Source of the DNA: a virus
DNA: 52,047 nt
Strand: one strand, 5' to 3'
Virus record (IMG/VR): IMGVR_UViG_3300044633_001177
Span: 1 to 52,047 of that record
Shown: positions 10,065-43,226 of the stretch, piece by piece
Position numbering within the stretch: the first letter of the stretch is position 1
Layout of the letters: the number at the start of each line of letters is the position of its first letter
The notes under the pieces: model-generated
The model's database searches: none
Told to the model about the DNA's origin: nothing
Seen by the model: the letters and a program-made list of their open reading frames with translations, nothing else
Program-made: the position numbers and the translations under genes

Positions 10065-10122
10065 AAGTATTTTCGTTTTATGCGCATAAAACACTTGCAC
10101 AAGCCGCTTGTGCATCTAAAGT
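10065..10122 (+). promoter_or_regulatory. Operator-promoter module, leaderless type
   Basis: An A/T-rich upstream element (10065-10075), the palindrome TTTTATGCGCATAAAA (10076-10091), -35 TTGCAC (10095-10100), 16-bp spacer and -10 TAAAGT (10117-10122). A second inverted repeat, TGCACAAGCCGCTTGTGCA (10096-10114), overlaps the -35 and spacer. The ATG at 10129 is 6 nt past the -10, so the mRNA should start at or next to the start codon. Confidence 0.85.
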
Positions 10123-10128
10123 GAGGAC

Positions 10129-10563
10129 ATGCAAAACACCTCTACCGCCGAACTCAAGCCCAACACCATCACCGTCCGCCATTGCGCCTTCGCCGACACC
10201 CCTTCCCAAGTGGGAGTCAGAACCATCACCTCCGCCATCGTTGGAAGTGAAACCGGGATGGCGGTTGTGCGCTTCGCTGAGTTGGCCTTTGAGCTTACCA
10301 ACCACCCCGCGCCGCCGGAATTCACGCAAGAAACCGTTGGCCGGTGCCCCTCTCTTTCCGTGGGTGACTTGGTTGGCGTGACCAACGCCACCGGGGTGAC
10401 AACGTGGTTTCTCGCTCGCTCCACCGGTTGGCGCTTCCTTGGAAGCGGACGCCTTGGCGCACTTTTCGTCTCTTCACTGCATAGCCGATGGAATGCGGCG
10501 CTTGCCGCTGACCCCTCCTCATGGAGCGCCCGCCGCTTTTGGTCTGACACCGCCGACCTTTGA
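10129..10563 (+). CDS. Cassette protein of unknown function
   Basis: 144 aa. N-terminal residues 1-20 are Thr/Ser-rich; the rest is a compact domain with many small residues and several Trp (GVTTWFLARSTGWRFLGSG; SSLHSRWNAAL; SWSARRFWSD). No family recognised. It is the first gene of a two-gene unit with its own operator-promoter and terminator, set between terL and the gpW-like gene, where lambda-like phages normally have no gap. That makes it a moron-type accessory gene; no start signal other than the leaderless promoter is present. Confidence 0.7.
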   Translation: MQNTSTAELKPNTITVRHCAFADTPSQVGVRTITSAIVGSETGMAVVRFAELAFELTNHPAPPEFTQETVGRCPSLSVGDLVGVTNATGVTTWFLARSTGWRFLGSGRLGALFVSSLHSRWNAALAADPSSWSARRFWSDTADL

Positions 10564-10600
10564 TTTTCCCCCTAACACTCACACCCACACCACCCACACC

Positions 10601-10819
10601 ATGAACACCACCACCGAAACCACCAAGCAAAGCGCCGCCATTAACCGCCTTGCTCGCCTTGGCTACTCCGTCACCTGCATGGACCCGGACGGGGAAGCGC
10701 AAATGTCACGCTCCCGCCGGGGCCAAATGCTATTGGCCACCGTTGGCGCGGATGGAAGCGTGAACGGTGAGCCGCTCGCCGAATTCATCGCGTGGCATAA
10801 GTCCCTTGCCCGCGGATAA
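10601..10819 (+). CDS. Small cassette protein of unknown function
   Basis: 72 aa. Residues 14-40 (INRLARLGYSVTCMDPDGEA) followed by a basic stretch (MSRSRRGQ) and an acidic end suggest a small alpha/beta domain. The ATG follows a strikingly C/A-only leader (10569-10600) with no Shine-Dalgarno. A longer in-frame reading from 10439 overlaps the previous gene and is rejected. It is the last gene before the cassette terminator. Confidence 0.6.
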   Translation: MNTTTETTKQSAAINRLARLGYSVTCMDPDGEAQMSRSRRGQMLLATVGADGSVNGEPLAEFIAWHKSLARG

Positions 10820-10838
10820 CCGCTCCCGGCTCCGCCGC
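10820..10838 (+). repeat. Cassette 3' repeat, copy 1
   Basis: CCGCTCCCGGCTCCGCCGC, identical to 25767-25785. In both places it comes directly before a terminator with a GGGGGCTTTT right arm and then the word TTGACGCGCC. Confidence 0.9.
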
Positions 10839-10843
10839 ACCCC

Positions 10844-10877
10844 AAGCCCCCACCGGTTCACGCCAGTGGGGGCTTTT
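10844..10877 (+). terminator. Rho-independent terminator of cassette 1
   Basis: Stem AAGCCCCCAC (10844-10853) with GTGGGGGCTT (10866-10875), 12-nt loop, then TTTTGCGTTT. It separates the cassette from the head genes. Confidence 0.75.
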
Positions 10878-10895
10878 GCGTTTCCGCCCGGAGGG

Positions 10896-10916
10896 TTGAC
10901 GCGCCCGGCTCAATAC
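10896..10916 (+). promoter_or_regulatory. TTGAC start-proximal motif (example)
   Basis: TTGACGCGCC begins 21 nt before the ATG at 10917. TTGAC lies 19-22 nt before the starts at 1171, 5356, 10917, 13019, 16007, 16772, 19451, 23524, 33942 and 34944. It is too close to the start codon to be a normal -35 box. Function unknown. Confidence 0.45.
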
Positions 10917-11177
10917 ATGGCCGCCCCCAACTACACAATCGGATTCACCCAAGCGGAGGTGGAGGCGATTCTTGCCGTCCACAAAGCTGAACTCTTGCAA
11001 TCCATGGCGTCCTTTTCGGAGTCCGGATCAAGCGTGACGCGCCTCCGAATGGAGGAAATCAATTCCATTATTGGAGCTTGCCAAACCGCCCTCCAACGCT
11101 TTGACCCGGAAAGCTACGGAACCACCAACCGCAACCGCACCGCCGTTTCCAGCGTCTCCGGACACCTTCCAAAATGA
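10917..11177 (+). CDS. gpW-like head-tail joining protein
   Basis: 86 aa. Two helices flank a short beta hairpin: TQAEVEAILAVHKAEL, then SGSSVTRLRMEEINSIIGAC, the pattern of lambda gpW, which seals the portal and provides the site for tail attachment. Length and position before the portal fit. The last residues (NRNRTAVSSVSGHLPK) are probably disordered. A longer frame from 10767 crosses the terminator and is rejected. The stop overlaps the portal ATG (ATGA). Confidence 0.75.
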   Translation: MAAPNYTIGFTQAEVEAILAVHKAELLQSMASFSESGSSVTRLRMEEINSIIGACQTALQRFDPESYGTTNRNRTAVSSVSGHLPK

Positions 11178-12646: not shown

Positions 12647-12662
12647 CGCGGGGCCATTGGGG

Positions 12663-12983: not shown

Positions 12984-12999
12984 CCCCGGGGTGACAAAT
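12980..12999 (+). repeat. 20-bp direct repeat, copy 1
   Basis: GTAACCCCGGGGTGACAAAT, identical to 34890-34909. Its core is almost palindromic around CCCCGGGG. Both copies lie just upstream of a gene that starts after a TTGACA / CTTGAT sequence (13019 and 34944). Confidence 0.9.
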
Positions 13000-13018
13000 T
13001 GACAACCGCGCTTGATCA

Positions 13019-22961: not shown

Positions 22962-23014
22962 TTTTCATTTTATGCGCATTAAATCCTTGCGCTTGCGCAT
23001 TGCGTAGATATTGT
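22962..23014 (+). promoter_or_regulatory. Operator-promoter module, leaderless type
   Basis: A T-rich element, TTTTATGCGCATTAAA (core ATGCGCAT at 22972-22979), -35 TTGCGC (22987-22992), 16-bp spacer, -10 TATTGT (23009-23014). An ATG follows after 6 nt at 23021 and opens an 8-codon frame. Confidence 0.75.
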
Positions 23015-23020
23015 AACGGC

Positions 23021-23047
23021 ATGAGAAACAAAACCGCCGCCGCCTGA
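23021..23047 (+). CDS. Eight-codon leader peptide
   Basis: ATG to TGA encodes MRNKTAAA. It begins exactly 6 nt after the -10, as in the other leaderless genes, and its TGA overlaps the ATG of the next gene (TGATG at 23045-23049). A terminating ribosome could restart on the overlapping ATG, so this may be a loading device for the gene at 23047. Confidence 0.55.
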   Translation: MRNKTAAA

Positions 23048-23244
23048 TGTCTCCCCTCCAATACCGCAAAGAACTAGCCGCCATCCTCCCCGAAGGGTGG
23101 ACAATCGAAATCCGCCGATGCGGACACCTCGCCCTTGTCGCCCCACATGGCGGGAAGGTATTTTGCGCCGCTTCCGCCTCCGATCATCGCGCCATCAAGA
23201 ACATTCAACGGGACGTGCGACGGGTGGCCGCATCCGCTCACTAA
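23047..23244 (+). CDS. Small HicA-like protein
   Basis: 65 aa. The pattern ILPEGWTIEIRRCGHLALVA, then PHGGKVFCAASASDHRAIKN, resembles small phage proteins with the HicA/dsRBD-like alpha-beta-beta-beta-alpha fold; the GGHL-type histidine of HicA toxins appears here as CGHL. HicA toxins cut mRNA, but no HicB antitoxin gene is adjacent, so toxin function is doubtful. The start codon overlaps the stop of the leader peptide. Confidence 0.6.
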   Translation: MSPLQYRKELAAILPEGWTIEIRRCGHLALVAPHGGKVFCAASASDHRAIKNIQRDVRRVAASAH

Positions 23245-24790: not shown

Positions 24791-24847
24791 GGTTTTTTCA
24801 TTTTATGCGCATAAAATACTTGCACAATCCGCTTGCGCTTGTAAAGT
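24791..24847 (+). promoter_or_regulatory. Operator-promoter module, leaderless type
   Basis: A T-rich element, perfect TTTTATGCGCATAAAA (24801-24816), -35 TTGCAC (24820-24825), 16-bp spacer, -10 TAAAGT (24842-24847). The ATG at 24854 is 6 nt downstream. The -35 and -10 are identical to those at 10095-10122. Confidence 0.85.
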
Positions 24848-24853
24848 GGGGAC

Positions 24854-25075
24854 ATGCAAAACACTACAGAAAAGCCCGTCAAGGTTTCCTCCTACAGGGG
24901 GGAGACCATCTACACCTACAAGGGACACCGCATCTACACGGAGAGAAAGACTGAGAGGACTTACTCCTGCGGGCTTTGCCGCTCAACAAGCTGGACCTCA
25001 ACCCACGTTGGAAGCAAGGCAATCAGTGGCGGGTTGAAGGACGCGGTTCGACTGATCAACGCGGGTAAAATTTAA
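24854..25075 (+). CDS. Small cassette protein, paralogue of 38450
   Basis: 73 aa. The start PVKVSSYRG and the end GLKDAVRLI align with PIKVSEFRG and GIRDAVRKL in the 74-aa protein at 38450; both have CGL and a TSW/TTW segment in the middle. This copy has CGLC in a short finger-like loop. Both genes are first in line behind the same leaderless promoter module, so gene and promoter were probably duplicated together. Function unknown. Confidence 0.65.
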   Translation: MQNTTEKPVKVSSYRGETIYTYKGHRIYTERKTERTYSCGLCRSTSWTSTHVGSKAISGGLKDAVRLINAGKI

Positions 25076-25785: not shown

Positions 25786-25790
25786 TCTCG

Positions 25791-25821
25791 CCCTCAACGG
25801 TTCGCGCCGTTGGGGGCTTTT
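25791..25821 (+). terminator. Rho-independent terminator of cassette
   Basis: CCCTCAACGG (25791-25800) pairs with CCGTTGGGGG (25807-25816) with one T-G wobble, loop TTCGCG, followed by CTTTTTTG. It shares its right arm and downstream bases with the terminator at 10844. Confidence 0.85.
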
Positions 25822-28589: not shown

Positions 28590-28958
28590 ATGCCCGATTC
28601 AACCGTTGTTGTCCCTCTCTCCGATCACAAGCTTGGCGACCCGTGGCCGGGCATCCCGTCCATTGGTCCAATCGTGATCAATGATGCCACGCCAGACGGT
28701 TTACTGACTCGCATCCGGGTGCAATTCCGCCAAGGTGGCCACGTCTTTACGTTGGACTCCGATGAGAGCGAGGACCGGGATTCCCCGATTACGATTACCA
28801 ACGCCGCCACATGGCTCGCCCTCATTCCTCCGGTTCAAAACTTCGTGACTCGCTCCGGGGAGTGGGATTTTGACATTCAATATTTCAAAGCGGGCTCAAA
28901 ATTCCGCACCCTCCACATGGGCACCCTCACCGTCCACCCTAACATTACCAAGCCTTGA
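28590..28958 (+). CDS. Small beta-sandwich tail protein (BppU-like)
   Basis: 122 aa. Pattern: PIVINDATPDGLLTRIRVQF, HVFTLDSDESEDRDSPITIT, then WDFDIQYF and FRTLHMGTLTV. This is the order of strands in phage proteins whose N-terminal domain binds the tail and that describe W/DIQ...TL.G beta sandwiches (BppU-like). Likely a structural adaptor for the collagen-like fibre that follows. Its TGA overlaps the TTG start of that gene. Confidence 0.55.
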   Translation: MPDSTVVVPLSDHKLGDPWPGIPSIGPIVINDATPDGLLTRIRVQFRQGGHVFTLDSDESEDRDSPITITNAATWLALIPPVQNFVTRSGEWDFDIQYFKAGSKFRTLHMGTLTVHPNITKP

Positions 28959-30445
28959 GCATTACCATTTTAGACGATACCATTTCAGCGCCAATCACGC
29001 TGGAAGCCCCCGACTCAATCTCCGCGCCGATTGCCGTGGTTTCTGGACCGCAAGGCGAACCCGGAACCAACGGGACCAATGGGACCAATGGGACCAATGG
29101 GACCAATGGGACCAACGGGACCAACGGGACCAATGGAACACCCGGCATTCAAGGTGATCCCGGCGAGGCGGGTGATATTGGCTACCCCGGTTTCAAATAT
29201 GACACGCGCCGGATCAACGCGAACGGCGCTCAGTATGCCCCCGGCGAAATCATTGAGTATGAGGGTTCCTATTTTATCTGCCTTGCAACAAATGATGCGG
29301 CACCCCCAACCGGCGAAGCAATAGGAGTTTATTGGAATCCTTATTCGTTCATTGGTCCACAAGGTCCACAAGGCGAACCCGGTTCTAATGGTTCGCAAGG
29401 CGAACCCGGTTCACAAGGACCGCAAGGCAACGCCGGGTCCACTGGCACAGAGGCGACTCCTATCACCAACATCTCAAATGATGGGTCCGGAAACCTCACG
29501 ATCTACACGGCCACAAGCAATTACGGTCCGTTCGCTCTAAAGGGAGATCCCGGGAGCAGTGGAGCGGACGGCAGCAATGGTGCGGAGGCGACTCCTATCA
29601 CCAACATCTCCGACGATGGGTCCGGGAACCTGATGATCTACACGGCATCAAGCAATTACGGACCTTTCGCCTTGAAAGGACCGACCGGGAACAACGGAGC
29701 CGATGGAGCCGATGGGGCACCCGGAGCGAACGGAGCCGATGGAGCGCCCGGAGCGAACGGCACCAACGGAACCGATGGAACCGATGGAGCGCCCGGAGCC
29801 GATGGCATTCAAGGCATTCCCGGAGCCGATGGGGCACCCGGAGCGAACGGCACCAACGGCACCAACGGAACCAATGGAACCAATGGAGCGACCGGGCCGC
29901 AAGGCATTCAAGGCATTCCCGGAGCCGATGGAGCGCCCGGATCTGCCGGAGCGCCCGGAGCCGATGGCATTGATGGAGCCGATGGGGCTACTGGAGCGCC
30001 CGGCCCCGCAAACGTCACGATTGCCGCGACTTCGGCGGACTTCTACGACCCGACCGGCGTGCTGTCCGACGTTTCGGGTATGTCATTTTCCGTGGCCGAA
30101 GATGAAACCATCTATGCGGAAATCAGTGGATTCCACACGTCAAGCGCAACGGGATCGGGGATCAAAATTGCGTTCACCGGACCGGCATCGCCCGTGCATG
30201 TCCGCTATTCCATCATGCGCTACACAACCCTTGCGTTGTCCCGGACGATGGAACCCGCCACCGCCTTCGGTGTGACTCTGATGGAGACGAACGGTTTCTT
30301 GGGCTCCGTCTTCTTCAGCGTAGTTCTCACGCTCAAAAATGGCGCAAACGCTGGACCGGTTCAATTCCAAGCCGCTTCCGAAACCAACCTTCTTTCAATG
30401 ACCATCACCCGCGGTGCAACAATGCGCGTCTTCCGCATCCCTTGA
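28955..30445 (+). CDS. Collagen-like tail fibre 1
   Basis: 496 aa from a TTG start that overlaps the previous stop (TTGA); no ATG is available nearby. Residues 1-30 are a short anchor; several Gly-X-Y blocks follow (GTNGTNG and GADGAPGAN repeats), separated by a YPGFKYDTRRINANGAQYAP carbohydrate-binding-like insert and two copies of an ATPITNIS-DGSGNL-IYTA-SNYGPFALKG module (about residues 165-245). The C-terminal 140 residues form a beta-rich head (about 352-496). Trimeric collagen-like fibres of this kind carry receptor-binding heads. Near-identical 9-bp units encode the repeats. Confidence 0.85.
   Translation: MSITILDDTISAPITLEAPDSISAPIAVVSGPQGEPGTNGTNGTNGTNGTNGTNGTNGTNGTPGIQGDPGEAGDIGYPGFKYDTRRINANGAQYAPGEIIEYEGSYFICLATNDAAPPTGEAIGVYWNPYSFIGPQGPQGEPGSNGSQGEPGSQGPQGNAGSTGTEATPITNISNDGSGNLTIYTATSNYGPFALKGDPGSSGADGSNGAEATPITNISDDGSGNLMIYTASSNYGPFALKGPTGNNGADGADGAPGANGADGAPGANGTNGTDGTDGAPGADGIQGIPGADGAPGANGTNGTNGTNGTNGATGPQGIQGIPGADGAPGSAGAPGADGIDGADGATGAPGPANVTIAATSADFYDPTGVLSDVSGMSFSVAEDETIYAEISGFHTSSATGSGIKIAFTGPASPVHVRYSIMRYTTLALSRTMEPATAFGVTLMETNGFLGSVFFSVVLTLKNGANAGPVQFQAASETNLLSMTITRGATMRVFRIP
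29067..29135 (+). repeat. Tandem 9-bp repeat (GGGACCAAT)
   Basis: About seven uninterrupted copies of a 9-bp unit GGGACCAAT or GGGACCAAC encode Gly-Thr-Asn triplets in fibre 1. Slippage would change fibre length in steps of three residues. Confidence 0.9.
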
Positions 30446-32651: not shown

Positions 32652-33908
32652 ATGCGCCTCCCCGACGAAACCATCCGAATCATCCGCCTTGCCGCTGATC
32701 GCGTCCTTGGCTTGCTCACGTTTGTGGGCACAGGAGGGCTTACCGTCACCCGCACCGGGAACACCATCACCATTCACACCTCCGGCGGGAGCGGACCGGC
32801 GGGAGCGGACGGCATTGATGGGGTTGATGGGCTTGATGGAGCCCCGGGCACCAATGGCACCAATGGCACCAATGGCACCAATGGCACCAATGGCGTGGAC
32901 GGCATTGACGGCACGCCGGGCGGCACGCCGGGCATTGATGGAACCAATGGAATCGACGGAATCGACGGAATCGACGGAACCAATGGGACCAATGGAATCG
33001 ACGGGATTAACGGCACTGATGGAGCCCCGGGCACCCCGGGAACCAATGGCACCAACGGCACGAATGGCGTGGACGGTGTGAGTGCCGGGATTCCCTTTGA
33101 TTTTGGGAACACCACCATAAGCGGAGACCCCGGCCAAGGGAAGCTCAATTACAACCACGCCACACCCTCAAGCGTCACCGAAATTTACATTGACGCGATT
33201 GACTCCGCCGGTGTGACGGTCCGCCCCTTCATCGAAGAATTCGACACCACCGGAGGGATTTTGATGGTGAAGAAAAAGAGCGACCCGGCCGCGTTCCACA
33301 TTTTCAACGTCACCGCCGTTACCACCAACGTGGCGGGCATTCCGGCCAACTACTGGCACGCCATCACCGTCACTTACTTGGCGGGGGGCGGAACCTTCAC
33401 CGCCACTGATGACTTGCTGGTTGAGTTCTCGCCGCGTGGCAACGCGGGGCCAACCGGAGCGAATGGGACGGGTGTCATCACCGGAATGGTGATGCCCTAC
33501 GCTGGCGCGACCCTTCCCACCGGGTGGCTATGGGCGGACGGATCGGTGGTGTCACGGGCAACCTACGCCGCGCTTTTCACGGCGGTGGGCACCACCTACG
33601 GAGTTGGGGACGGTTCCACCACCTTCGGCATCCCGGACCTTCGCGGGCGGGTTGTTGCTGGCGTGGACAACATGAACAATTCCGTTGGCACCGGCGGGGG
33701 CGATGCCCTCCGCATGACCGCCGCCGCCCTCAATGGTGACACGCTTGGCGCGGCCGGAGGCACGGAGACGCACGGCACGTCCCTTAGTGTCTCGACTAGC
33801 AACAATGCCCCCAACACGGGCGGAACAGTGAAAGTCACCGCCGTGAGTGCAAGCGCGGCGTCTTCCATCCAGCCCACGATTGTCTTGAACTACATCATCA
33901 AAGACTAA
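32652..33908 (+). CDS. Collagen-like tail fibre 2 with tail collar domain
   Basis: 418 aa. Residues 1-45 are an anchor (LPDETIRIIRLAADRVLGLL). Gly-X-Y repeats run from about 50 to 138 (GTNGTNG, GIDGIDG). A beta-rich middle follows (150-270). The C-terminus is a phage tail collar domain (about 275-335): MVMPYAGATLPTGWLWADGS, TYAALFTAVGTTYGVGDGST and FGIPDLRGRVVAGVDNM, ending with a SIQPTIVLNYIIKD motif typical of the family. Probably receptor binding. It starts 4 nt after the DUF2829 gene. Confidence 0.88.
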   Translation: MRLPDETIRIIRLAADRVLGLLTFVGTGGLTVTRTGNTITIHTSGGSGPAGADGIDGVDGLDGAPGTNGTNGTNGTNGTNGVDGIDGTPGGTPGIDGTNGIDGIDGIDGTNGTNGIDGINGTDGAPGTPGTNGTNGTNGVDGVSAGIPFDFGNTTISGDPGQGKLNYNHATPSSVTEIYIDAIDSAGVTVRPFIEEFDTTGGILMVKKKSDPAAFHIFNVTAVTTNVAGIPANYWHAITVTYLAGGGTFTATDDLLVEFSPRGNAGPTGANGTGVITGMVMPYAGATLPTGWLWADGSVVSRATYAALFTAVGTTYGVGDGSTTFGIPDLRGRVVAGVDNMNNSVGTGGGDALRMTAAALNGDTLGAAGGTETHGTSLSVSTSNNAPNTGGTVKVTAVSASAASSIQPTIVLNYIIKD

Positions 33909-36443: not shown

Positions 36444-36497
36444 TTGTAAGTCACTCGTTTTCCGCATGTTATGCGCACACCGCAATTTTAATGCGGA

Positions 36498-36543
36498 TTT
36501 ATGCGCATAAAACACTTGCGCTCTAGCCGCTTGCGCTTATGGT
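36498..36543 (+). promoter_or_regulatory. Operator-promoter module before amidoligase
   Basis: Palindrome TTTATGCGCATAAA (36498-36511), -35 TTGCGC (36516-36521), 16-bp spacer, -10 TATGGT (36538-36543). Unlike the others it is followed by a leader of about 29 nt to the ATG at 36579. Further ATGCGC words lie just upstream (36470-36496). Confidence 0.75.
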
Positions 36544-36578: not shown

Positions 36579-37457
36579 ATGCCAACCACCCCCTCCACCG
36601 CCACCAACTACTCCACCGATCGCCAGTTTGGCATTGAACTTGAATTCAAGGGCAGCGCCTACGAAGCCAACGCTAGATTGAACGCGGCCGGTATCGCCTC
36701 CGAAGTGGAAAGCTACAACCACACCACCCGTGACCGCTTCAAGTTCGTTTACGATGGAAGCGTCTCTACCAACTTGAACGTGGGCGGCGAATTGGTGAGC
36801 CCCATCCTCCGCGGTGAGGCCGGAATTGAGACCGCCAAGGCCGCCGCCAAGGCGCTCTCCAACGGTGCTAAAGTGGATCAATCTTGCGGTTTCCACGTCC
36901 ACATTGATGTCTCCGACTTCACCCTTTTCAATTTCAAGAACCTCGCCAAAATTTGGCTCAAGTTTGAAGATGTGATGGAATTCACCATCGCCAAAAGCCG
37001 CCGCGGAAGCGCTCGCTATTGCGCCTCCAACCTTCAGAACTTCCGCTCCTACCGCGACTCCGATTCCTCGCTCTCCCCCGCTGCCAATCAGTGCAAGATG
37101 GATTGCGCCGCCCTTGTTCGTGCCTTCGCCGCAATCGACGCTTGCACCACGATCGAGCAGATTGTGGAGCTCTTCCCCGGCCGCTACTGGAAGATGAACC
37201 TCCGCTCCTTCTTCCGCCACCAAACCGTCGAATTCCGCCTTCACCAAGGCACGGTAAACGCGACCAAGGTGGAAATGTGGGTGCGCCTCATGAACTACAT
37301 CGTGATGAGCGCCAAGAGCACCCGCGGCAAGGTGGCCCCTCGCAAGGACGACGGCAAGACCGGAATCGGCCGCCTCCGCTCGCTCTTCTACGGTGGCCGC
37401 GATGCCCACGTTTGCGCCTACTTCATCAAGCGTGCCAAGGTGCTCGCGGCCGCCTAA
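36579..37457 (+). CDS. Amidoligase (COOH-NH2 ligase) family enzyme
   Basis: 292 aa. Signatures of the putative amidoligase family: FGIELEF (17-23), KFVYDGSV (55-62), GGELVSPIL (69-77), CGFHVHID (103-110) and TVEFRLHQGT (217-226). The fold is that of glutamine synthetase/gamma-glutamylcysteine ligase. These enzymes are predicted to join a carboxyl to an amine with ATP, for example adding amino acids to a protein or small molecule. Nearby are two gamma-glutamylcyclotransferase-like genes (37901, 40125) that could undo or trim such links. An ATG at 36579 is preferred over the frame open from 36501, which would include the promoter. Confidence 0.85.
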   Translation: MPTTPSTATNYSTDRQFGIELEFKGSAYEANARLNAAGIASEVESYNHTTRDRFKFVYDGSVSTNLNVGGELVSPILRGEAGIETAKAAAKALSNGAKVDQSCGFHVHIDVSDFTLFNFKNLAKIWLKFEDVMEFTIAKSRRGSARYCASNLQNFRSYRDSDSSLSPAANQCKMDCAALVRAFAAIDACTTIEQIVELFPGRYWKMNLRSFFRHQTVEFRLHQGTVNATKVEMWVRLMNYIVMSAKSTRGKVAPRKDDGKTGIGRLRSLFYGGRDAHVCAYFIKRAKVLAAA

Positions 37458-37470
37458 TGCGAGCCCTTAC

Positions 37471-37490
37471 GGAGGGGCTCCGGCCCCTCC
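37471..37490 (+). terminator. Possible hairpin terminator or attenuator
   Basis: Perfect 8-bp stem GGAGGGGC/GCCCCTCC with loop TCCG, 14 nt after the amidoligase stop. No T run follows, so it may only slow transcription or protect the mRNA end. Confidence 0.4.
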
Positions 37491-37538
37491 TGCTCTCTCC
37501 ACCCTACCAACTCACCAAACGCCCCCACAACGCAAACC

Positions 37539-37850
37539 ATGAGCAAAGCCACCCAATCCCACGCGCTCCGCGCCCCCTTCATTCCGATCGCCCCGGAATT
37601 CACCACCTTGGACGGCGCACAATTCCGCGCCGCCACCGCCTTGGAATTCTGCCACCAACTCCGGGAAGCCTCCCACAACCCGGGGCGGTCCTTCGCCCAT
37701 TACCTCGCCGCCACCGCCCGCGCCGCCACGCTCTACAACGGAGCGCACCACCGGGGGGACACGGCGGAAAACCTCACGGCGGACCTGATCACCTCCGGAC
37801 TTGTTGTGGTCACGGAGGCGGTGGACCCGAACTTCCCCCGCCTCGCCTAA
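37539..37850 (+). CDS. Protein of unknown function
   Basis: 103 aa, mostly helical (FRAATALEFCHQLREASHNP; SFAHYLAATARAATLYNGAH; TAENLTADLITSGLVVVTEA). No family recognised. It lies between the amidoligase and the first cyclotransferase-like gene, so it may be a partner or a substrate of that chemistry. That is only a guess from position. C/A-rich leader. Confidence 0.6.
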   Translation: MSKATQSHALRAPFIPIAPEFTTLDGAQFRAATALEFCHQLREASHNPGRSFAHYLAATARAATLYNGAHHRGDTAENLTADLITSGLVVVTEAVDPNFPRLA

Positions 37851-37900
37851 TCCCCCGGGCCGCCCTCACTCTTCCCCTAACACTCTCCCCACCATCCCCC

Positions 37901-38386
37901 ATGAAAACGCTTTACTTCGCTTACGGTTCCAACCTCATGAAAGACCAAATGCGCCAACGATGCCCCGGCTCCATGCCGGTGGCGCGGGCGGAACTCCCGG
38001 GCTGGCGTTGGCTCATCGGCGAGCGGGGCTTCGCCACCATCGCGCCCTCCGCCAAGGCCACCGTCTACGGAGCGCTCTACGAACTCACGGAGCGCGATGA
38101 GGCCCGCTTGGACATTAGCGAAGGGGTGGCGGCCGGGTGCTATGGGAAATTCATCCTTGAAGTGTCGGTAAGGGATCGCGCCAAGGTCAAGGCCGTGAAC
38201 CGCGCGAAGCTCGCCGCGTCCAACCCGGTCCGCGCCCTTGTCTACATCGACCCGCGTGTCCGCCGCGGGGAACCATCCCATGACTACCTCCGCCGGTGCG
38301 TGCAAGGGGCGGACAAGTGGAACCTCCCGGACGAAGCCACCGAAACCATGCTTGAGTATTTCGAGGGCGGGGAACTCCCCTTTTGA
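37901..38386 (+). CDS. Gamma-glutamylcyclotransferase-like (AIG2) enzyme 1
   Basis: 161 aa. LYFAYGSNL (4-12) is the diagnostic AIG2/GGCT motif, and ELTERDEARLDISEGVAAGCY carries the catalytic-type glutamate (E74). Enzymes of this fold turn a gamma-glutamyl amide into 5-oxoproline and the free amine. With the amidoligase upstream it could remove or edit a gamma-linked tag. The large open frame that begins at 37019 is only the out-of-frame read of the amidoligase; the ATG at 37901 follows a C/A-rich leader. The TGA opens the next promoter module. Confidence 0.85.
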   Translation: MKTLYFAYGSNLMKDQMRQRCPGSMPVARAELPGWRWLIGERGFATIAPSAKATVYGALYELTERDEARLDISEGVAAGCYGKFILEVSVRDRAKVKAVNRAKLAASNPVRALVYIDPRVRRGEPSHDYLRRCVQGADKWNLPDEATETMLEYFEGGELPF

Positions 38387-38443
38387 AGTATTTTCATTTT
38401 ATGCGCATTAAATGCTTGCGCAATCCGCTTGCGCATCTATAAT
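38387..38443 (+). promoter_or_regulatory. Operator-promoter module, leaderless type
   Basis: Starts at the stop codon of 37901. AGTATTTTC element, TTTTATGCGCATTAAA (core 38401-38408), -35 TTGCGC (38416-38421), 16-bp spacer, perfect -10 TATAAT (38438-38443). Second inverted repeat TGCGCAATCCGCTTGCGCA at 38417-38435. The ATG at 38450 is 6 nt past the -10. Confidence 0.9.
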
Positions 38444-38449
38444 GAACCC

Positions 38450-38674
38450 ATGAGCAACATCAAGCCAATCAAAGTCAGCGAATTCCGCGGTGTTAAAAGC
38501 TACCGCTTCGGAACTTGGTTCATCACCGTCACTAGAACGACAGAAAGCACCCGCCAAGGATGCGGTCTCCGGCACAACGAAACATTCACGACTTGGCGTG
38601 CCAAGCATGACGATGGGCGCGAGGCGCTCGCCGGATACGGTGGCATTCGCGATGCCGTCCGCAAGCTCGCCTAA
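38450..38674 (+). CDS. Small protein, paralogue of 24854
   Basis: 74 aa. KPIKVSEFRG at the start and GGIRDAVRKL at the end match the protein at 24854, with a CGL and a TTW segment between. The second cysteine of the CGLC loop is missing here (CGLR). The leaderless promoter fixes the start at 38450; a longer frame from 38429 would begin inside the -35/-10 spacer. Function unknown. Confidence 0.7.
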   Translation: MSNIKPIKVSEFRGVKSYRFGTWFITVTRTTESTRQGCGLRHNETFTTWRAKHDDGREALAGYGGIRDAVRKLA

Positions 38675-38995: not shown

Positions 38996-39267
38996 AAACC
39001 CCCAAATCCCTCCCGCTCCCCGCCCCCGGCTCCATCATCACCACCGCTTGGACCATCCCGCAAAAGTGGCATCGCACCACTTGGCGTGTGAATGACAACG
39101 GCACCGCCACCCCGATCCACCGGCAACACTATTGGTGTAGTGTTAGGGGTGCCCTTGAAGTGATCGAAAACGGCACCCCCGCCCCGATCACCCCCAAGCT
39201 CTTCCCGGCATCCGGGCGAGTCTTGCTCACCATCAACGGGGACGTGGTGGAGAACGGGAAATTTTGA
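38992..39267 (+). CDS. Small protein of unknown function
   Basis: 91 aa. Beta-rich with several Trp (ITTAWTIPQKWHRTTWRVND; RQHYWCSVRGALEVIENGTP). Starts at the ATG that overlaps the previous stop; a longer frame from 38743 is a shadow. The TGA is directly followed by the next promoter module. Confidence 0.55.
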   Translation: MKTPKSLPLPAPGSIITTAWTIPQKWHRTTWRVNDNGTATPIHRQHYWCSVRGALEVIENGTPAPITPKLFPASGRVLLTINGDVVENGKF

Positions 39268-39313
39268 AATATGCGCATAAAACACTTGCGCAAAGCGCTT
39301 GCGCATCCATATT
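39268..39313 (+). promoter_or_regulatory. Operator-promoter module, leaderless type
   Basis: Short form without the T-rich element: ATGCGCAT (39271-39278), -35 TTGCGC (39286-39291), 16-bp spacer, -10 CATATT (39308-39313). Inverted repeat TGCGCAAAGCGCTTGCGCA at 39287-39305. The ATG at 39320 is 6 nt downstream. Confidence 0.8.
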
Positions 39314-39319
39314 GAACCC

Positions 39320-39547
39320 ATGAGCAACACCTCCCCCACCGAAACTCCCGCCCTCAAATCCTTCCGCGCCATCAAATGGGATGGAAGGCGCTACCATGAC
39401 GCGACCACCTCCCCCTTTCGGGTGGCGGCCGAAAACCCCAACCCCGAACTTTTCAGCGAGTGCGCCACCCGCGACCTTCGCGGCGCTTACAAGCTTTGGA
39501 GCGAAACGAAGAGTGGAGCCACCACGGAGGTGTGGGGCTGGCTTTGA
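39320..39547 (+). CDS. Small protein of unknown function
   Basis: 75 aa. Pattern FRAIKWDGRRYHDATTSPFR, then CATRDLRGAYKLWSETKSGA and a closing EVWGWL, consistent with a small alpha/beta domain. Start fixed by the leaderless promoter. The first codons (ATGAGCAACA) equal those of the gene at 38450, so the promoter and start region were probably copied together. Confidence 0.6.
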   Translation: MSNTSPTETPALKSFRAIKWDGRRYHDATTSPFRVAAENPNPELFSECATRDLRGAYKLWSETKSGATTEVWGWL

Positions 39548-39582
39548 TCCTCCCGGCCGCAAACCCTAACCAACCACCGATC

Positions 39583-40128
39583 ATGCCCACGCCCACCCAA
39601 CCAATCCCCTACGCCACCGCCAAGAGCCTGACCGCCAACCTCACGGAGCTTTTCTTGGGCTACCGGGGAAGGGATCGCGCCACCAACGTGAGGGTGGCCG
39701 CCGGGCCTTACCCGGCCACCGTGGACGAATCCATTGATGACTCCCTCCGCTACCGCGCCGGAGTCCTCCAGCTTGTGGCGGAGTTTGCCGTGGACCACCC
39801 CTTCCGCGGGACGAACTTGGAGCGCTTCCGGAAGTTGGCCGCCCTCCATGTGGCCTTGTGTGACATCTACGGGCGCTTTCCCATCCTTTGCGCCGAAGGG
39901 CTCACGGGCGAGCATTCCGGCGGAAGTTCGTTTTCACCCGTCTCCAACACGATCACCCTCCGGGGCCGCCTGTCCGTGATTACATACCTCCACGAATTTG
40001 GCCACGCCCTCGGGAAGAATGAGGCGGGCGCTTGCCGGTGGTCACTGAACATTTTCAAGCGGGTTTTTCCCGTTGCATTCTCCCGCCTTACGGCAGTTAA
40101 TCACACCCTCACCCGCCCGCAATCATGA
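39583..40128 (+). CDS. HEFGH zinc metalloprotein
   Basis: 181 aa. SVITYLHEFGHALGKNEAGA (131-150) has a gluzincin-type HExxH (137-141) and a nearby glutamate (E147) that may complete the site; CRWSLNIFKRVFPVAFSRL follows. A helical N-terminal part with RFRKLAALHVALCDIYGRFP precedes it. Similar proteins in plasmids and phages are annotated as hypothetical or SprT-like. Its stop overlaps the start of the second cyclotransferase-like gene, which ties it to the amide-bond enzymes of this region. A peptidase role is plausible but unproven. Confidence 0.7.
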   Translation: MPTPTQPIPYATAKSLTANLTELFLGYRGRDRATNVRVAAGPYPATVDESIDDSLRYRAGVLQLVAEFAVDHPFRGTNLERFRKLAALHVALCDIYGRFPILCAEGLTGEHSGGSSFSPVSNTITLRGRLSVITYLHEFGHALGKNEAGACRWSLNIFKRVFPVAFSRLTAVNHTLTRPQS

Positions 40129-40580
40129 CCAAAGCCCCCACTATTGTCACCGTTGAAACGACACCCACCTCCCCGGCGAGGGCGGTGGAGATTTGCCCAC
40201 TCGTCTTCGTCTACGGCACCCTCAAGCGGGGCCACATGAACCACCGGATCTTGGAGCACGGCAACGCTGAATTCCTCGGGACCGCCGCCACCCTCCGGGA
40301 TCATTCCCTATTCGTGGACGGGCTTCCCTACCTTGTTGAGGGAACCCATGAAGACCCCGGCTCGCATCAAGTCCGCGGGGAACTCTACAAGGTGGACGCC
40401 GAAACGATGGCGAGCCTTGACCGCTTGGAAGGCCACCCGCGCTTCTATGAGCGCCGCCTCGCCCGCTTCGTCTATTCGGATCGCCACACACCGGATGGAG
40501 CCGCTCCCCGCGCTTGGGTTTACTACCACCCGTGGAGCCCCCAATTTCTCAACCTCACCCCCCTCAAAGAATACAAGTGA
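40125..40580 (+). CDS. Gamma-glutamylcyclotransferase-like enzyme 2
   Basis: 151 aa. LVFVYGTLKRGHMNHRIL (YGTLK at 30-34) and VRGELYKVDAETMASLDRLE (E102 in LDRLEGHPRFY) are the two motifs of the GGCT/AIG2 family, of the YGTLK type seen in gamma-glutamylamine cyclotransferases, whereas the gene at 37901 has the YGSN type. The two enzymes therefore probably differ in substrate. It overlaps the HEFGH gene by 4 nt. Confidence 0.85.
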   Translation: MTKAPTIVTVETTPTSPARAVEICPLVFVYGTLKRGHMNHRILEHGNAEFLGTAATLRDHSLFVDGLPYLVEGTHEDPGSHQVRGELYKVDAETMASLDRLEGHPRFYERRLARFVYSDRHTPDGAAPRAWVYYHPWSPQFLNLTPLKEYK

Positions 40581-40591
40581 CCACCACCGCC

Positions 40592-40786
40592 ATGAGTGAA
40601 GACGAAACACCACCCACCCCCAAGGGAGTCGCCCGCTACCTAGCCTCAATCGGCAAGCGGGGCGGAAGCTCCGGGACCGGAGACGCCAAGCGCCGGGGAG
40701 ACTCCTCCCACTACTCCGAACTTTCCAAAAAGCGTTGGGCCGCCAAGAAAAAAGCGGACGCCGCCGCCAAGCGGAATCCCGGGTGA
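40592..40786 (+). CDS. Small basic protein
   Basis: 64 aa. GVARYLASIGKRGGSSGTGD, then SELSKKRWAAKKKADAAAKR: a Gly-rich turn between basic helices, as in KGG-type stress proteins and small nucleic-acid-binding proteins of phages. The start follows the previous stop by 11 nt in a C/A-rich stretch. The TGA opens the next promoter module. Confidence 0.5.
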   Translation: MSEDETPPTPKGVARYLASIGKRGGSSGTGDAKRRGDSSHYSELSKKRWAAKKKADAAAKRNPG

Positions 40787-40844
40787 AAGTATTTTCATTT
40801 TATGCGCACAAAACACTTGCGCCTCAAGCCGCTTGCGCTTACTC
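40787..40844 (+). promoter_or_regulatory. Operator-promoter module, leaderless type
   Basis: AAGTATTTTC element, TTTTATGCGCACAAAA (40798-40813, one half-site changed), -35 TTGCGC (40817-40822), 16-bp spacer, weak -10 TTACTC (40839-40844). The ATG at 40851 is 6 nt downstream. Confidence 0.7.
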
Positions 40845-40850
40845 TCGGGC

Positions 40851-41087
40851 ATGACCAAAACCAATAACACCGTCGCCACCCTCCGTTTCACCTCCGAAGA
40901 ACGCGACACGCAAGACATCACGGAATTCATGGCGGGGCTGGACGAAAACCACCCGGAAGCCGCCGCCACGGTGGAGGGCTTCAATGTCACCGTCACCCTG
41001 ATCGCACCGCGCGGCGAGATCGAGGAAGCTATTGGCGGAGTGGAATACTTCGCCCGCGCTTGCGCCCTCGCCGAAGCGATCCATTGA
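40851..41087 (+). CDS. Small acidic protein of unknown function
   Basis: 78 aa, acidic, alpha/beta by eye (VATLRFTSEERDTQDITEFM; AATVEGFNVTVTLIAPRGEI; FARACALAEAIH). Acidic small phage proteins are sometimes DNA mimics or inhibitors, but nothing specific is seen. It is the last rightward gene before the convergent integrase, ending 15 nt from it. Confidence 0.6.
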   Translation: MTKTNNTVATLRFTSEERDTQDITEFMAGLDENHPEAAATVEGFNVTVTLIAPRGEIEEAIGGVEYFARACALAEAIH

Positions 41088-41102
41088 CCGCTACCGGCGG
41101 AC

Positions 41103-42620
41103 TCACCCGAAGTGGGGGCGGAGAATCACCGCCTCCGCTTCGGCTTCCGGGGCGAGCCCCTCAAGCTCCCAATCCCCGCCGGGCAACTCCCGCCACGTCA
41201 CCGGCTCCGCCCTGTCATGAAATTCGACCGTGAACCACCGGGGGGCATTCGATTCGGCCGTGATTCGGCGGACCGTTTGCGCGATGGCCACCGCCCGCCC
41301 TTCCTCCGTTGTCCAATCCGCCTCACTGGCGCGAGCCGGGGGCGCGTCCTCCAATAGCGCCAGCGTGGCGCGTAGCGCATCGCGCCGCACCTCCGCTGCC
41401 ATGAGTGCCGCCGTGAGCGCCTCGCTTGCTCCTGCCGCGCCAAGGGCACCCACAAGGTTGGCAATCTTCGCGTGGACTTCCTCAAGTTGGAGGCGCACCA
41501 CTTGGCCGGAATCGTCAGCGGGCTGGATTTCCGCCCGGCTCGCTTCGATCGCCACCGCCGTGAAAAGCGCCATGAACTCGCGCAATGGCCATGAGTGCCG
41601 CCGCCCGGCTCCCGCTTCCCCCGCGCTTGTCCGAAGGTAGGCGTAAAGCTTCCCGCTCACCGTCATGGCGTGGAGGTGGAAGGCGAAGCCCTCCGGGCAA
41701 AAGATGAGCCCGCGGAACGGGTTGGCCGCGGGGTTGTCCGTCCTCCCTTTCTGATGCCGCCGCCGCTCGCGAAGCCGCTGGACCCGCGCCCAATCCTCCG
41801 GGGAAATGATCGCGGGGAAATAGCCCTCAATCGGAGCGAGCGCAATGCCGCGCTTCCCCCCTCGCCTTTCGGGGCCGGACCTTGGGGTGAACTCACCCAA
41901 CACGCTCCGACCGTCCACGATTGTGGCGAGGCTTGAAACGCGCCACTTGCCACCGCGGGCCGCGGGGATGCCATCTTGATTGAGCGCCTTCGCCACCGCT
42001 GCCATTCCAGCCCCGGCGAGGACCATGCCGAAGATTCTCCGGACGATCGCCGCCGCCTCTTCGCGGACGTGCCATTTGCCCTCGCGTAGCTCAAGCCAAA
42101 AGGGGCCATTGGCGCTCATGGGTTGGGCCAACGCTTCCGCCCGCTTCCTCTCCCACGACTCCCGGCCGCGGTGCGACTTGGTGGCGCTCTCTTCATTCGC
42201 CCGCGACATGATCAAGAGAGAATACATCATCTCCATCATCATGTTCGGGGCGCTCGCGTCATAGACGTGGCCATCCGCCAGCGTGACCACGGACACCCCG
42301 GCGTTGATGATTTGGAGGAAGATCGGGAGGGCGAAGTTCACCTCAAGCCGGGAAATCCGATCAAGGCTTTCAACCACCAAGAGGGAGCCCGGCGGAATGC
42401 GTCCAGCCTCCACCGCTGCCAAGAATTCCCGCAACGCGCCCGCCGTGGAGTTCTTGCCCCGGAACGCGGAAACGCCAAGGTCACGGTAATTGTCCGCAGG
42501 GGTGGCCCCGTTGGAGGCGCACCACGAAGCAAAGCCCGCGTCCTGCCGCCTCACGGAGTCCCCGCCCGCTTGGGCGAGCGATGAAAAGCGAACATACGAA
42601 AACGCAAGGCGTGCGGACAT
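41103..42620 (-). CDS. Large serine recombinase (integrase)
   Basis: 505 aa. N-terminal resolvase domain with YVRFSSLAQAGGDSVRRQ (catalytic Ser expected at RFSS) and SLLVVESLDRISRLEVN. A recombinase domain follows (about 160-250: GPFWLELREGKWHVREEAAA, VAKALNQDGIPAARGGKW). The zinc ribbon region is reduced: FCPEGFAFHLHAMTVSGKLY has one Cys and no CxxC pair. The C-terminal part has a coiled coil (about 370-440). Catalyses attP x attB integration; a directionality factor was not identified. The start lies 6 nt after a TAACAT -10, so it is also probably leaderless. Confidence 0.9.
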   Translation of the reverse strand: MSARLAFSYVRFSSLAQAGGDSVRRQDAGFASWCASNGATPADNYRDLGVSAFRGKNSTAGALREFLAAVEAGRIPPGSLLVVESLDRISRLEVNFALPIFLQIINAGVSVVTLADGHVYDASAPNMMMEMMYSLLIMSRANEESATKSHRGRESWERKRAEALAQPMSANGPFWLELREGKWHVREEAAAIVRRIFGMVLAGAGMAAVAKALNQDGIPAARGGKWRVSSLATIVDGRSVLGEFTPRSGPERRGGKRGIALAPIEGYFPAIISPEDWARVQRLRERRRHQKGRTDNPAANPFRGLIFCPEGFAFHLHAMTVSGKLYAYLRTSAGEAGAGRRHSWPLREFMALFTAVAIEASRAEIQPADDSGQVVRLQLEEVHAKIANLVGALGAAGASEALTAALMAAEVRRDALRATLALLEDAPPARASEADWTTEEGRAVAIAQTVRRITAESNAPRWFTVEFHDRAEPVTWRELPGGDWELEGLAPEAEAEAVILRPHFG

Positions 42621-42626
42621 ATACGC

Positions 42627-42654
42627 ATGTTATCCGCGTTTGCGGGGTTGTCCA
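42627..42654 (-). promoter_or_regulatory. Integrase promoter, leaderless type
   Basis: On the lower strand: TGGACA (42654-42649), 16-bp spacer, TAACAT (42632-42627), then 6 nt and the integrase ATG. The spacer is the left arm of a long inverted repeat, so binding there would block expression. Confidence 0.6.
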
Positions 42655-42692
42655 GTTATTCGTGAATGCCTGTATAACCCCGCAAAACGCGG
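42634..42692. other. Long inverted repeat, candidate attP
   Basis: CCGCGTTTGCGGGGTT (42634-42649) and AACCCCGCAAAACGCGG (42676-42692) are inverted copies that differ by one T, 26 nt apart. No T run follows on either strand, so it is not a standard terminator. The total of 59 bp, the symmetry and the place next to the integrase start fit the attP of a large serine recombinase, or an operator for the integrase gene. Confidence 0.5.
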
Positions 42693-42705
42693 AACTAATT
42701 AAGGC

Positions 42706-43032
42706 TCAACGCTTTGCGGAGGCGGTTTTCCGCACTACCTTGCGCTCTTTCGCCGGGGGTTGGGTCACGGGGGGTTCTCCGCCAGTGAGGGCGCGGGCCG
42801 AACGGACCACCTCAACCACGGATTCCTCCATTGCCTTTTGGCGGGCGGCCGCTTGCTTGATTCGCTCCTTCGCTCCTTCGCCGAGGGATGCCATCAAGAG
42901 GCGGTTGACCATTTCGGAGACGCTCACGCCTTCGGCATAAGCTAACTCCCTCGCCCCCGTGTAAACTACTGGATCAAGGGTTAAATTCACGCGACTCCGT
43001 GCGTGATCCGGGTTCTTTCGGTAACGTGCCAT
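42706..43032 (-). CDS. Ribbon-helix-helix regulator 1
   Basis: 108 aa. RSRVNLTLDPVVYTGARELA, then YAEGVSVSEMVNRLLMASL, is a CopG/Arc-type ribbon-helix-helix (strand RVNLTL, helices 20-50). A charged helix (55-80) and a disordered basic tail follow. Such dimers bind short palindromes. Its own promoter (43139-43166) carries ATTATGCGCATAAT across the -10, so it may repress itself and the dispersed ATGCGCAT promoters, as a lysogeny repressor would. It lies 85 nt upstream of the integrase on the same strand, with a leader of about 100 nt. Confidence 0.8.
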   Translation of the reverse strand: MARYRKNPDHARSRVNLTLDPVVYTGARELAYAEGVSVSEMVNRLLMASLGEGAKERIKQAAARQKAMEESVVEVVRSARALTGGEPPVTQPPAKERKVVRKTASAKR

Positions 43033-43090
43033 GGGTCTCTCTACGTTTGGAGTTCAATTTTGGGTTCGTGGTAGGGTTTCACCCCATGGT

Positions 43091-43126
43091 TAGGGGATGA
43101 AATCTGCGGTAGGGGACGGAGTCCGC
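43091..43126. repeat. Two 17-bp direct repeats in the regulator leader
   Basis: TAGGGGATGAAATCTGC (43091-43107) and TAGGGGACGGAGTCCGC (43110-43126) differ at four transitions and are spaced 19 bp. They lie in the untranslated leader of the leftward regulator gene. Confidence 0.6.
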
Positions 43127-43138
43127 GTATCCTCTGTT

Positions 43139-43166
43139 ATTATGCGCATAATCGGCGCATTTGCAA
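43139..43166 (-). promoter_or_regulatory. Leftward regulator promoter with palindromic operator
   Basis: Lower strand: TTGCAA (43166-43161), 16-bp spacer, CATAAT (43144-43139). The palindrome ATTATGCGCATAAT (43139-43152) covers the -10. This is the most direct sign that the ATGCGCAT protein controls the regulator gene. Confidence 0.75.
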
Positions 43167-43199
43167 GTAATTTGAATTTTCAACCTTTGAAAAAAGTTC

Positions 43200-43226
43200 T
43201 TGATATGCGTATTAAATGCTTATAAT
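43200..43226 (+). promoter_or_regulatory. Rightward promoter before second regulator
   Basis: TTGATA (43200-43205), 15-bp spacer with ATGCGTATTAAATGC, TATAAT (43221-43226); ATG at 43236 after 9 nt. It is back to back with the leftward promoter at 43139. Confidence 0.75.

Follow-up and report, generated by a model that had tools for sequence, protein, structure and literature searches.

A recurrent intergenic octamer, ATRCGYAT, as a candidate phage-wide operator in a temperate phage of Verrucomicrobia-type hosts

Palindrome-promoter modules and their genes

The window, i.e. the whole stretch of 52,047 nt of viral DNA that was analysed, carries a leftward integrase gene (41103-42620, minus strand), whose product also matches DNA invertases of the serine type. 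It is adjoined by the gene of a putative ribbon-helix-helix (RHH, Arc-like) protein (42706-43032, minus strand), from which a second small gene diverges (43236-43451, plus strand). A sequence-only reading had placed a palindrome directly before a -35 box at seven places, and all seven were found, its coordinates being off by 0-4 nt. Allowing up to three mismatches, TTTTATGCGCATAAAA had 10 matches in the window against 0.11 expected. The modules account for seven of these (10076, 22968, 24801, 36497, 38397, 39267 and 40798); the remaining ones lie in a predicted coding region (2898) and at further promoter-region sites (43138, 45759). The fixed hexamers were likewise confirmed: TTGCGC or TTGCAC stands 3 nt past the 16-mer and is followed by a 16-nt spacer and a -10 in 7/7 copies, the spacer being 16 or 17 nt at 40798. 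The promoters were chosen by our own scoring, and some of the hexamers include letters of the operator. In this layout, called class I here, a single A/T-flanked operator lies just upstream of the -35, near -45 (-45.5).

All seven modules are on the plus strand, as are their genes. Module 1 (10076-10128) consists of the operator (10076-10091), the -35 (10095-10100), a second dyad, dyad 2 (10096-10114), and the -10 (10117-10122), with an ATG at 10129; its accessory gene (10129-10563) belongs to no family and has no counterpart at this place in a collinear relative of the phage. Module 2 (22968-23020, operator 22968-22983), without a clear dyad 2, precedes a gene at 23047-23244 which has a homologue in the relative. 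The accessory genes under module 3 (24801-24853, operator 24801-24816, dyad 2 24821-24839, ATG 24854, gene 24854-25075) and module 5 (38397-38449, operator 38397-38412, dyad 2 38417-38435, ATG 38450, gene 38450-38674) are paralogues (40% over 67 aa). In module 4 (36497-36543, operator 36497-36512, dyad 2 36519-36537) the start is leadered and belongs to an Amidoligase_2 protein (36579-37457, E 1.3e-34). Module 6 (39267-39319, operator 39267-39282, dyad 2 39287-39305, ATG 39320) precedes an accessory gene of no family (39320-39547), and module 7 (40798-40850, dyad 2 40821-40839, ATG 40851), with the operator variant ATGCGCAC (40798-40813), one of no significant family (40851-41087).

The genes at 10129, 24854, 38450, 39320 and 40851 each have their own promoter and are missing from the collinear place in the relative, as morons are. 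The module promoters would drive mostly small accessory, moron-like genes which differ between related phages. To call the modules at 39267 and 40798 absent from the relative would be too strong, since dyad-2 promoters are found there beside neighbouring genes at the places of both modules. The exact module pattern had no match in the viral contigs, and in 1.03 Mb of other loci nothing scored above 15.3 with the module weight matrix, which misses weak copies (within the window itself, the copy at 22968 scores 10.4 and the one at 40798 is not among the matches).

Dyad 2, with the core CAAGC-S-GCTTG, fills the spacer in six of the seven class I modules, 22968 being without it. The inverted repeat read earlier as TGCGCAA-N5-TTGCGCA over the -35 and spacer is present, but is exact only in 2/7 copies. 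Selection for symmetry had been argued from the copy at 10096, in which both arms have indeed changed; over 10 dyads, however (six of the seven window copies, 22968 being left out as it has no dyad, and four from the relative), the arm pairing was barely above the shuffled value (70/90 vs 66.5, P 0.03). In three copies the terminator scans took dyad 2 for a hairpin on the minus strand that has a weak T-run. A role as leftward terminator was rejected: terminator-like matches are rarer in the window than in shuffles (17 vs 22.0), and the T-run is lost in L103rc 14375, the one relative copy covered by this comparison. Behind the module 3 genes the scan flagged a hairpin resembling a terminator (25790-25817, plus strand), and an element similar to it, unflagged, lies after the module 1 genes (10835-10886); beyond these two, the scans revealed no terminators belonging to the module genes.

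The octamer ATRCGYAT in the window and in the relative

The seven modules are part of a larger operator system. There are 17 copies of the octamer ATRCGYAT in the window and all of them are intergenic, although intergenic DNA makes up only 7.9% of it; many near-identical intergenic sites across a genome are what marks a phage-wide operator. Among 128 palindromes of like form it ranks first, the runner-up having 4 intergenic copies. Fifteen promoter regions of the window contain the octamer and a sixteenth carries a one-letter variant. In the relative 16 of 18 distinct copies are intergenic, several of them at matching promoters; the raw count there was 19, with L165rc 10253 and L167rc 1 being one site seen twice. 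The L167rc 1 copy is truncated and the -37.5 obtained for it, an artefact, was left out of the results. In a Prosthecobacter MAG, over 1.2 Mb, no intergenic preference was seen (12/69 vs 11.3 expected). The earlier suggestion of a phage regulon under one dyad-binding protein is strongly supported by the 17/17 intergenic sites, which give it a wider extent than first claimed.

Besides the class I modules, the octamer is found at early promoters, at the integrase gene and at the divergent regulator pair. At these class II sites it overlaps the -35, the spacer, the -10 or the start, often as a pair 10-11 bp apart. On the plus strand, the pair ATGCGCAT-N3-ATGCGTAT (745-763) lies inside the promoter of gene 776, an operator at 4578-4585 in the promoter of gene 4609 and ATACGTAT (6110-6117) upstream of gene 6185. 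On the minus strand, an operator (42621-42628) stands where the leftward integrase gene begins; its place is taken in the relative by a pair (L103rc 18832 and 18843). Two further operators (43142-43149 and 43205-43212) lie between the divergent genes 42706 (minus strand) and 43236 (plus strand), and operators occupy the same position between genes of this type in the relative (L165rc sites 391 and 440). On the plus strand follow an operator at 43508-43515, upstream of the gene starting at 43603 and with a weak promoter score, and two class II sites, an operator at 45763-45770 that overlaps the -10 upstream of gene 45822 and a pair at 48518-48536 upstream of gene 48566. Demonstrated in the DNA of the two phages are the operator, its placement and recurrence, together with the promoter layout and the differences in the module genes.

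As a point against the operator reading, only two of the four dyad-2 promoters in the relative have an exact octamer: one carries a pair at -56.5/-46.5 and in the other the octamer lies over the -10. The third has two near-octamers farther upstream, and none was seen at the fourth.

Six module copies can be aligned over 73 nt including the ATG, and these copies flank genes that differ between the relatives. The repeats could on this ground be mainly recombination or exchange sequences which move accessory cassettes, with regulation secondary. This is highly improbable, as the octamer also stands in other contexts, at early promoters, at the integrase start and in the RHH region of both phages.

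Start codons close to the -10

In the sequence-only reading the start codon was placed 6 nt after the -10 at each of a series of genes. This distance was observed at 10129, 24854, 38450 and 39320, as well as at the integrase start at 42620 (TGGACA-16-TAACAT), and it is 5 or 6 nt at 40851. Two of the proposed starts were not upheld. The ATG at 23021 opens only an 8-codon ORF, and the gene begins at 23047, as does its homologue in the relative; the ORF from this predicted 5' ATG overlaps the start of gene 23047 (UGAUG). The start at 43514 was rejected, since in the relative the homologous gene begins at the position equivalent to 43603. The gene downstream of the 36497 module (start 36579) has a long leader.

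The strict pattern TTG-N(19..21)-TANNNT-N6-ATG was found four times in the window, always in modules (23021 being one of them), whereas 60 first-order Markov shuffles gave 0.22 on average. In the related phage the 6-nt spacing is kept at only one of the four dyad-2 promoters, with a poor -10. The equal spacing largely reflects shared descent, given the 73-nt alignment of six copies, in which the ATG is included, and separate evolution of the 6-nt distance in each module was rejected.

Based on the spacing, leaderless starts are likely for 10129, 24854, 38450, 39320 and 40851, and plausible for the integrase. Leaderlessness does not define the regulon, however, because two of the seven modules are without a direct leaderless gene, the relative keeps the spacing at only 1/4 of its dyad-2 promoters, and genes of a host-type genome are enriched for it as well. 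In that Prosthecobacter MAG (one genome) a 6-nt -10/ATG peak was seen among the genes and no Shine-Dalgarno peak; the gene starts were taken from a codon-model gene finder, which replaced crude longest-ORF starts that were too noisy. In Akkermansia muciniphila leaderless transcripts have been mapped, and 10% of the starts lie at the start codon (PMC4782308). Since the spacing is enriched in the host-type genome and such starts occur in Akkermansia, the layout, which had been called unusual, appears ordinary for this host group. The Akkermansia 5' ends at start codons (PMC4782308) were measured in a Verrucomicrobiota bacterium, whereas here they are predicted for a phage from spacing. A -10 six nt before the ATG is an enriched layout in such hosts and is to be expected in their phages.

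The position of the -10 5-6 nt before the ATG in five genes and the integrase could also mean that the leaderless layout is itself a regulatory device, marking a gene class translated in a special state. We consider this very unlikely: the module copies share descent, the spacing is kept in only 1/4 of the relative's promoters, other operator promoters are leadered (e.g. that of 45822), and the layout is enriched in the host-type genome.

The candidate reader and the proposed control

The protein encoded at 42706 is the best candidate for the reader of ATRCGYAT, and a rather likely one. It matches Pfam RHH_5 (E 4e-4, 20.5 bits, below the cut-off of 26) and the PHROG Arc-like family (E 0.005), and it is 60% identical to its counterpart in the relative, with the strand RVNLTLDP identical in both phages. 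The single-chain fold model was poor (pTM 0.35); helices 21-34 and 38-49 were modelled well and no strand was formed. A Foldseek search with this model gave nothing below E 2.5, a PDB sequence search with the alignment returned 2 weak, unrelated matches only, and the protein as query had no match in the phages collection.

Among host RHH genes that share the strand type of 42706, 7/9 have ATGCGT/ACGCAT in their own promoters, compared with 1/26 for the others; the types are groups of relatives and the classes were set after the promoters had been seen, so that P values are optimistic. For this set 30 loci from the match list were examined; merging identical starts reduced 38 loci to 34 (L176, L184, L186 and L196 dropped), and with L214 added and L213 dropped, as no start could be set, the number became 35. 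At one position of the strand the phage protein has N, whereas T is found in most type A host proteins; one such host RHH protein, used as query, had no match in plasmids. That strand type goes with promoter palindrome in Verrucomicrobiota suggests that regulators may be matched to their operators from sequence.

Some Verrucomicrobiota genomes encode RHH proteins whose own promoters contain ATGCGT/ACGCAT, and a host regulator might read the operator instead of a phage protein. The chance of this appears slight, as the octamer has no intergenic preference in the host-type Prosthecobacter MAG, and close relatives of 42706 are rare in host genomes (1/286 at E 1e-4, and 6/387 at E 0.003 with a two-sequence profile).

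Lambda CI and Cro share operators. The 43236 protein, which is RHH-like by our own reading only, might similarly read the operator, or compete for it with 42706: it is encoded divergently from 42706 with operators between the two in both phages, and its strand NLYLD is unchanged in the relative. It is, however, less well supported than 42706 and rather unlikely as reader, as it has no family match, the strand type linked to ATGCGT/ACGCAT in host promoters is a different one, and it is less conserved (44% identity to the homologue in L165, vs 60% for 42706). Neither 43236 nor the amidoligase found a match as bait in the viral contigs, but these misses prove little, because the relative encodes homologues of both and the search overlooks diverged homologues.

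Taken together, a phage-wide ATRCGYAT operator read by the RHH protein 42706 as a lysogeny regulator is the probable reading, this role being suggested by the position of the gene beside the integrase. At class II sites the operator-bound protein would probably act as a repressor, blocking RNA polymerase at the early, integrase and regulator promoters. In class I, the operator just upstream of the -35 would belong to seven late-arm promoters which drive accessory genes. Five module genes and the integrase would probably start at or within 1-2 nt of the mRNA 5' end, which also seems to hold for many genes of the host. More tentatively, 42706 might be a two-way switch which works by helical placement alone: bound at about -24/-13 it would shut the early, integrase and regulator promoters, and when sitting at -45.5, which is two turns upstream and next to the -35, it would turn the moron promoters on in the lysogen. 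A second protein on the CAAGC-S-GCTTG dyad would then gate the moron promoters, and new genes would enter the regulon together with, or next to, a preformed 73-nt cassette of promoter and start codon. The two-way switch is rated as doubtful, the more so because the operator lies near -46 in only 1/4 of the relative's dyad-2 promoters. The regulation of a temperate phage from Verrucomicrobia-type hosts can be drawn as a concrete, testable map, with an operator, a candidate regulator, two promoter classes and accessory genes.

The operator system resembles already known phage-wide operator systems; its binder and its direction of control are what we infer. P22 immI has the RHH regulators Arc and Mnt and operators between divergent phage genes, as here, but those operators are local to immI and the present one is phage-wide. 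The extended start-associated sequences (ESAS) of Cluster K mycobacteriophages are 46-47-bp promoters with SigA-like hexamers and an inverted repeat, which occur in several intergenic copies (7 in Adephagia) before scattered genes and are thought to be regulator-controlled (PMC3203893, PMC11373665). The modules share with them the several intergenic promoter copies with an inverted repeat before scattered phage genes, and differ in sequence, host phylum and the inverted repeat itself; the ESAS accompany a 13-bp SAS near the start codon, whereas no SAS-like element was seen in our module alignments, and the present phage also uses a second, phage-wide octamer (PMC3203893, PMC11373665). The SPBRE of SPbeta are, like the octamer, short intergenic repeats across a temperate phage with a serine recombinase; they are 15 bp long and read by one phage repressor, the tyrosine-recombinase-like MrpR, while here an 8-bp palindrome would be read by one phage protein, the RHH candidate (PMC10516654). 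The stoperators of Cluster A mycobacteriophages are also many sites spread over the phage genome; they are asymmetric, 13 bp long, read by a monomer and also stop elongation, in contrast to the symmetric sites in promoter regions found here (PMC9283540).

Distribution of the octamer and the layout of its promoters

The virus record (G000; 52,047 bases) encodes a terminase, a portal, a head protease and a major head protein, together with a leftward integrase, which also matches DNA invertases. Long collagen-like Gly-X-Y repeats were seen in two predicted tail-region proteins (28955-30445 and 32652-33908). Of 14 terminase loci in bacterial genomes, 11 were 51-57% identical, all of them from Verrucomicrobiota; the remaining three showed 43% (Chthoniobacter), 25% (Verrucomicrobia) and 24% (Planctomycetota) identity. 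One close relative was found, in records G001 (34.6 kb, loci L020 and L103, terminase 72% identical to that of the window) and G012 (15.8 kb, loci L165 and L167). Since both derive from one sample (3300006417), run collinear with the window and have about 73 nt of tandem repeat in common at their ends, they probably represent one phage. The records meet in a short tandem repeat (L167 at the end of G012, L020 at that of G001); this repeat is the probable cause of the break in assembly. The homologue of the window's right end precedes that of its left end in G012, thus the window is probably a near full, circularly permuted genome.

The palindrome proposed from the sequence was borne out, with 10 matches in the window vs. 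0.11 expected; for ATGCGCAT the values were 11 and 0.81. The octamer ATRCGYAT occurs in 17 copies spread over 15 promoter regions, all 17 in intergenic DNA, which makes up 7.9% of the sequence, and when 128 degenerate palindromes of like form were compared, the runner-up had 4 intergenic copies. Not every gene has the octamer: 39 predicted genes have 35 nt or more of upstream sequence, and most of these lack it. The relative carries 18 distinct copies (16 intergenic), matching the window promoters at several places: in the divergent RHH region, where the integrase begins and at early genes. No intergenic preference was observed in a 1.2 Mb Prosthecobacter MAG (12 of 69 vs. 11.3 expected), and 94 related phage and prophage loci, L020 with its one copy among them, showed no enrichment of ATGCGCAT (22 vs. 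31.9 expected). The operator regulon is, with high confidence, real.

The -35, the spacer and the -10, claimed to be fixed in place, were all present in each of the seven modules (operators at 10076, 22968, 24801, 36497, 38397, 39267 and 40798, the last with a one-letter variant of the octamer). Assuming a transcription start 7 nt past the -10, the operator centre lies at -45.5 in six modules and at -46.5 in the other. At promoters of early genes, regulators and the integrase the centres are at -24.5 or -25.5, -13.5 and -4.5, with some operators paired at 11 bp. These registers, those of the modules included, differ by approximately whole helical turns; the promoters of both classes were chosen by our own scoring, and operator letters contribute to some of the hexamers. 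The 43508 promoter scored poorly. Further centres in the relative are -15.5, +5.5 and -2.5.

The second dyad, CAAGC-S-GCTTG, is confined to late-arm promoters. Its exact copies are intergenic in the window (2 of 2) and in the relative (3 of 3), none occurs in L165, L167 or L020, and the one in the host stretches is coding; co-variation of the two arms was weak (P 0.03). Octamers are arranged differently at each of the relative's four dyad-2 promoters: a pair at -56.5/-46.5 in one, two near-octamers (GTGCGCAT, ATGCGCAC) lying farther upstream in another, a copy over the -10 in a third and none visible in the last. The tight module of the window is therefore not a fixed layout.

The module-driven products are mostly small proteins without family; those of 24854 and 38450 are paralogues (40% over 67 aa), and an Amidoligase_2 protein is also under a module, with a GGACT-like gene farther downstream. 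Within the late arm, this Amidoligase_2 protein is joined by two GGACT (gamma-glutamyl cyclotransferase-like) proteins, the genes lying in 36579-38386 and 40125-40580. The search for counterparts in the relative covered the collinear place and found none there for 10129, 24854, 38450, 39320 and 40851. Where the window has 22968 and 36497, the relative has dyad-2 promoters too, and two more precede its homologues of 40577 and of 39583, which follows 39320. Such differences in module genes are moron-like.

Start-codon spacing and the habit of the host

The sequence-only reading placed start codons exactly 6 nt after the -10. This held for 10129, 24854, 38450, 39320, 40851 (5 or 6 nt) and the integrase, and failed for 23021 and 43514, where the wrong gene starts had been taken; it is also absent at 36579, the gene after the 36497 module. 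Gene prediction from codon usage and start type alone, blind to promoters, set starts at 10129, 24854, 38450, 39320 and 40851. Since six of the seven modules are aligned copies of a single 73-nt sequence, start codon included, the spacing is one inherited layout. In the 22968 module the predicted 5'-terminal ATG (23021) opens an 8-codon frame, whose UGA overlaps the true gene start (UGAUG; 23021-23049). This overlap could permit translation coupling, possibly as a leaderless leader peptide with coupled reinitiation.

The host start-layout data (LEADERLESSNESS) comprise Akkermansia and one Prosthecobacter MAG, with 441 ATG-starting genes that have 50 nt or more of free sequence before them. In these 441 genes TANNNT peaked exactly 6 nt before ATG (13 vs. 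a background of 2.87; 35 vs. 11.5 at 6-9 nt), and TTG stood at the -35 place in 8 of the 13 peak genes vs. 57 of 441 overall. Shine-Dalgarno tetramers 5-9 nt before ATG fell below background (2-3 each vs. 4.6), the sole high tetramer count near the start being 11 at 1 nt. C directly precedes ATG in 65% of the 441 genes (L105-L164). By Cappable-seq, 10% of Akkermansia muciniphila starts are leaderless vs. 0.4% in E. coli (PMC4782308), and Akkermansia species rank as SD-scarce (PMC10783764). In this host group, phage genes with no leader or almost none are therefore expected, and the leaderless part of the reading is ordinary there. Since the -10 to ATG distances at the relative's dyad-2 promoters vary (6, with a poor -10, CACCAT; 12, 12 and 20 nt), the leaderless trait is not tied to the regulon.

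Candidate reader and known systems

The product of 42706-43032 (complementary strand) is RHH-like (RHH_5 E 4e-4, below the cut-off; Arc-like PHROG E 0.005). The homologue in the relative shows 60% identity and an unchanged strand RVNLTLDP, which, by RHH structures, we take to be the DNA-contact strand. The gene adjoins the integrase and is divergent from 43236, with operators between the two genes in both phages. It is likely the operator reader, as far as sequence can tell; its structural model is too weak to decide this. RHH genes of Verrucomicrobiota genomes (35 promoters of 100 nt; L170-L207, L214), many of them inferred to be autoregulated antitoxin genes, gave an independent view. ATGCGT/ACGCAT was found in 7 of 9 promoters of the R[VI]TLT-like type vs. 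1 of 26 others (P 4e-5), and the exact octamer in 5 of 9 vs. 1 of 26 (P 0.002); in the method control, TACGTC was present in 7 of 7 KLTL[RH]-type promoters vs. 0 of 28 (P 1.5e-7), all these P values being optimistic because the types are groups of related proteins and the classes were set after the promoters had been seen. GCACA occurred in 5 of 5 KNITL-type promoters, yet also in 7 of 30 others, so this pairing is not specific. The N-terminal strand type tracks the motif of the own promoter, R[VI]TLT with ATGCGT/ACGCAT and KLTL[RH] with TACGTC. One RHH gene, at L168/L190 (G096:C35), shares 40% identity with 42706 across 55 residues; its promoter contains ATACGCAT, and an open frame overlapping or adjoining the gene may encode a PIN-type toxin.

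Among open-licence titles and abstract beginnings, none that links RHH proteins to lysogeny and serine integrases, and none on Verrucomicrobia prophage promoters, describes this system. In its mode of working the system most resembles SPBRE/MrpR of SPbeta and, in Cluster K mycobacteriophages, the ESAS promoters. The window's system was classed as neither, because SPBRE differs in site and protein type, and ESAS is accompanied by SAS, which was not seen in the module alignments. The regulators of P22 immI are RHH proteins, like the candidate of the window.
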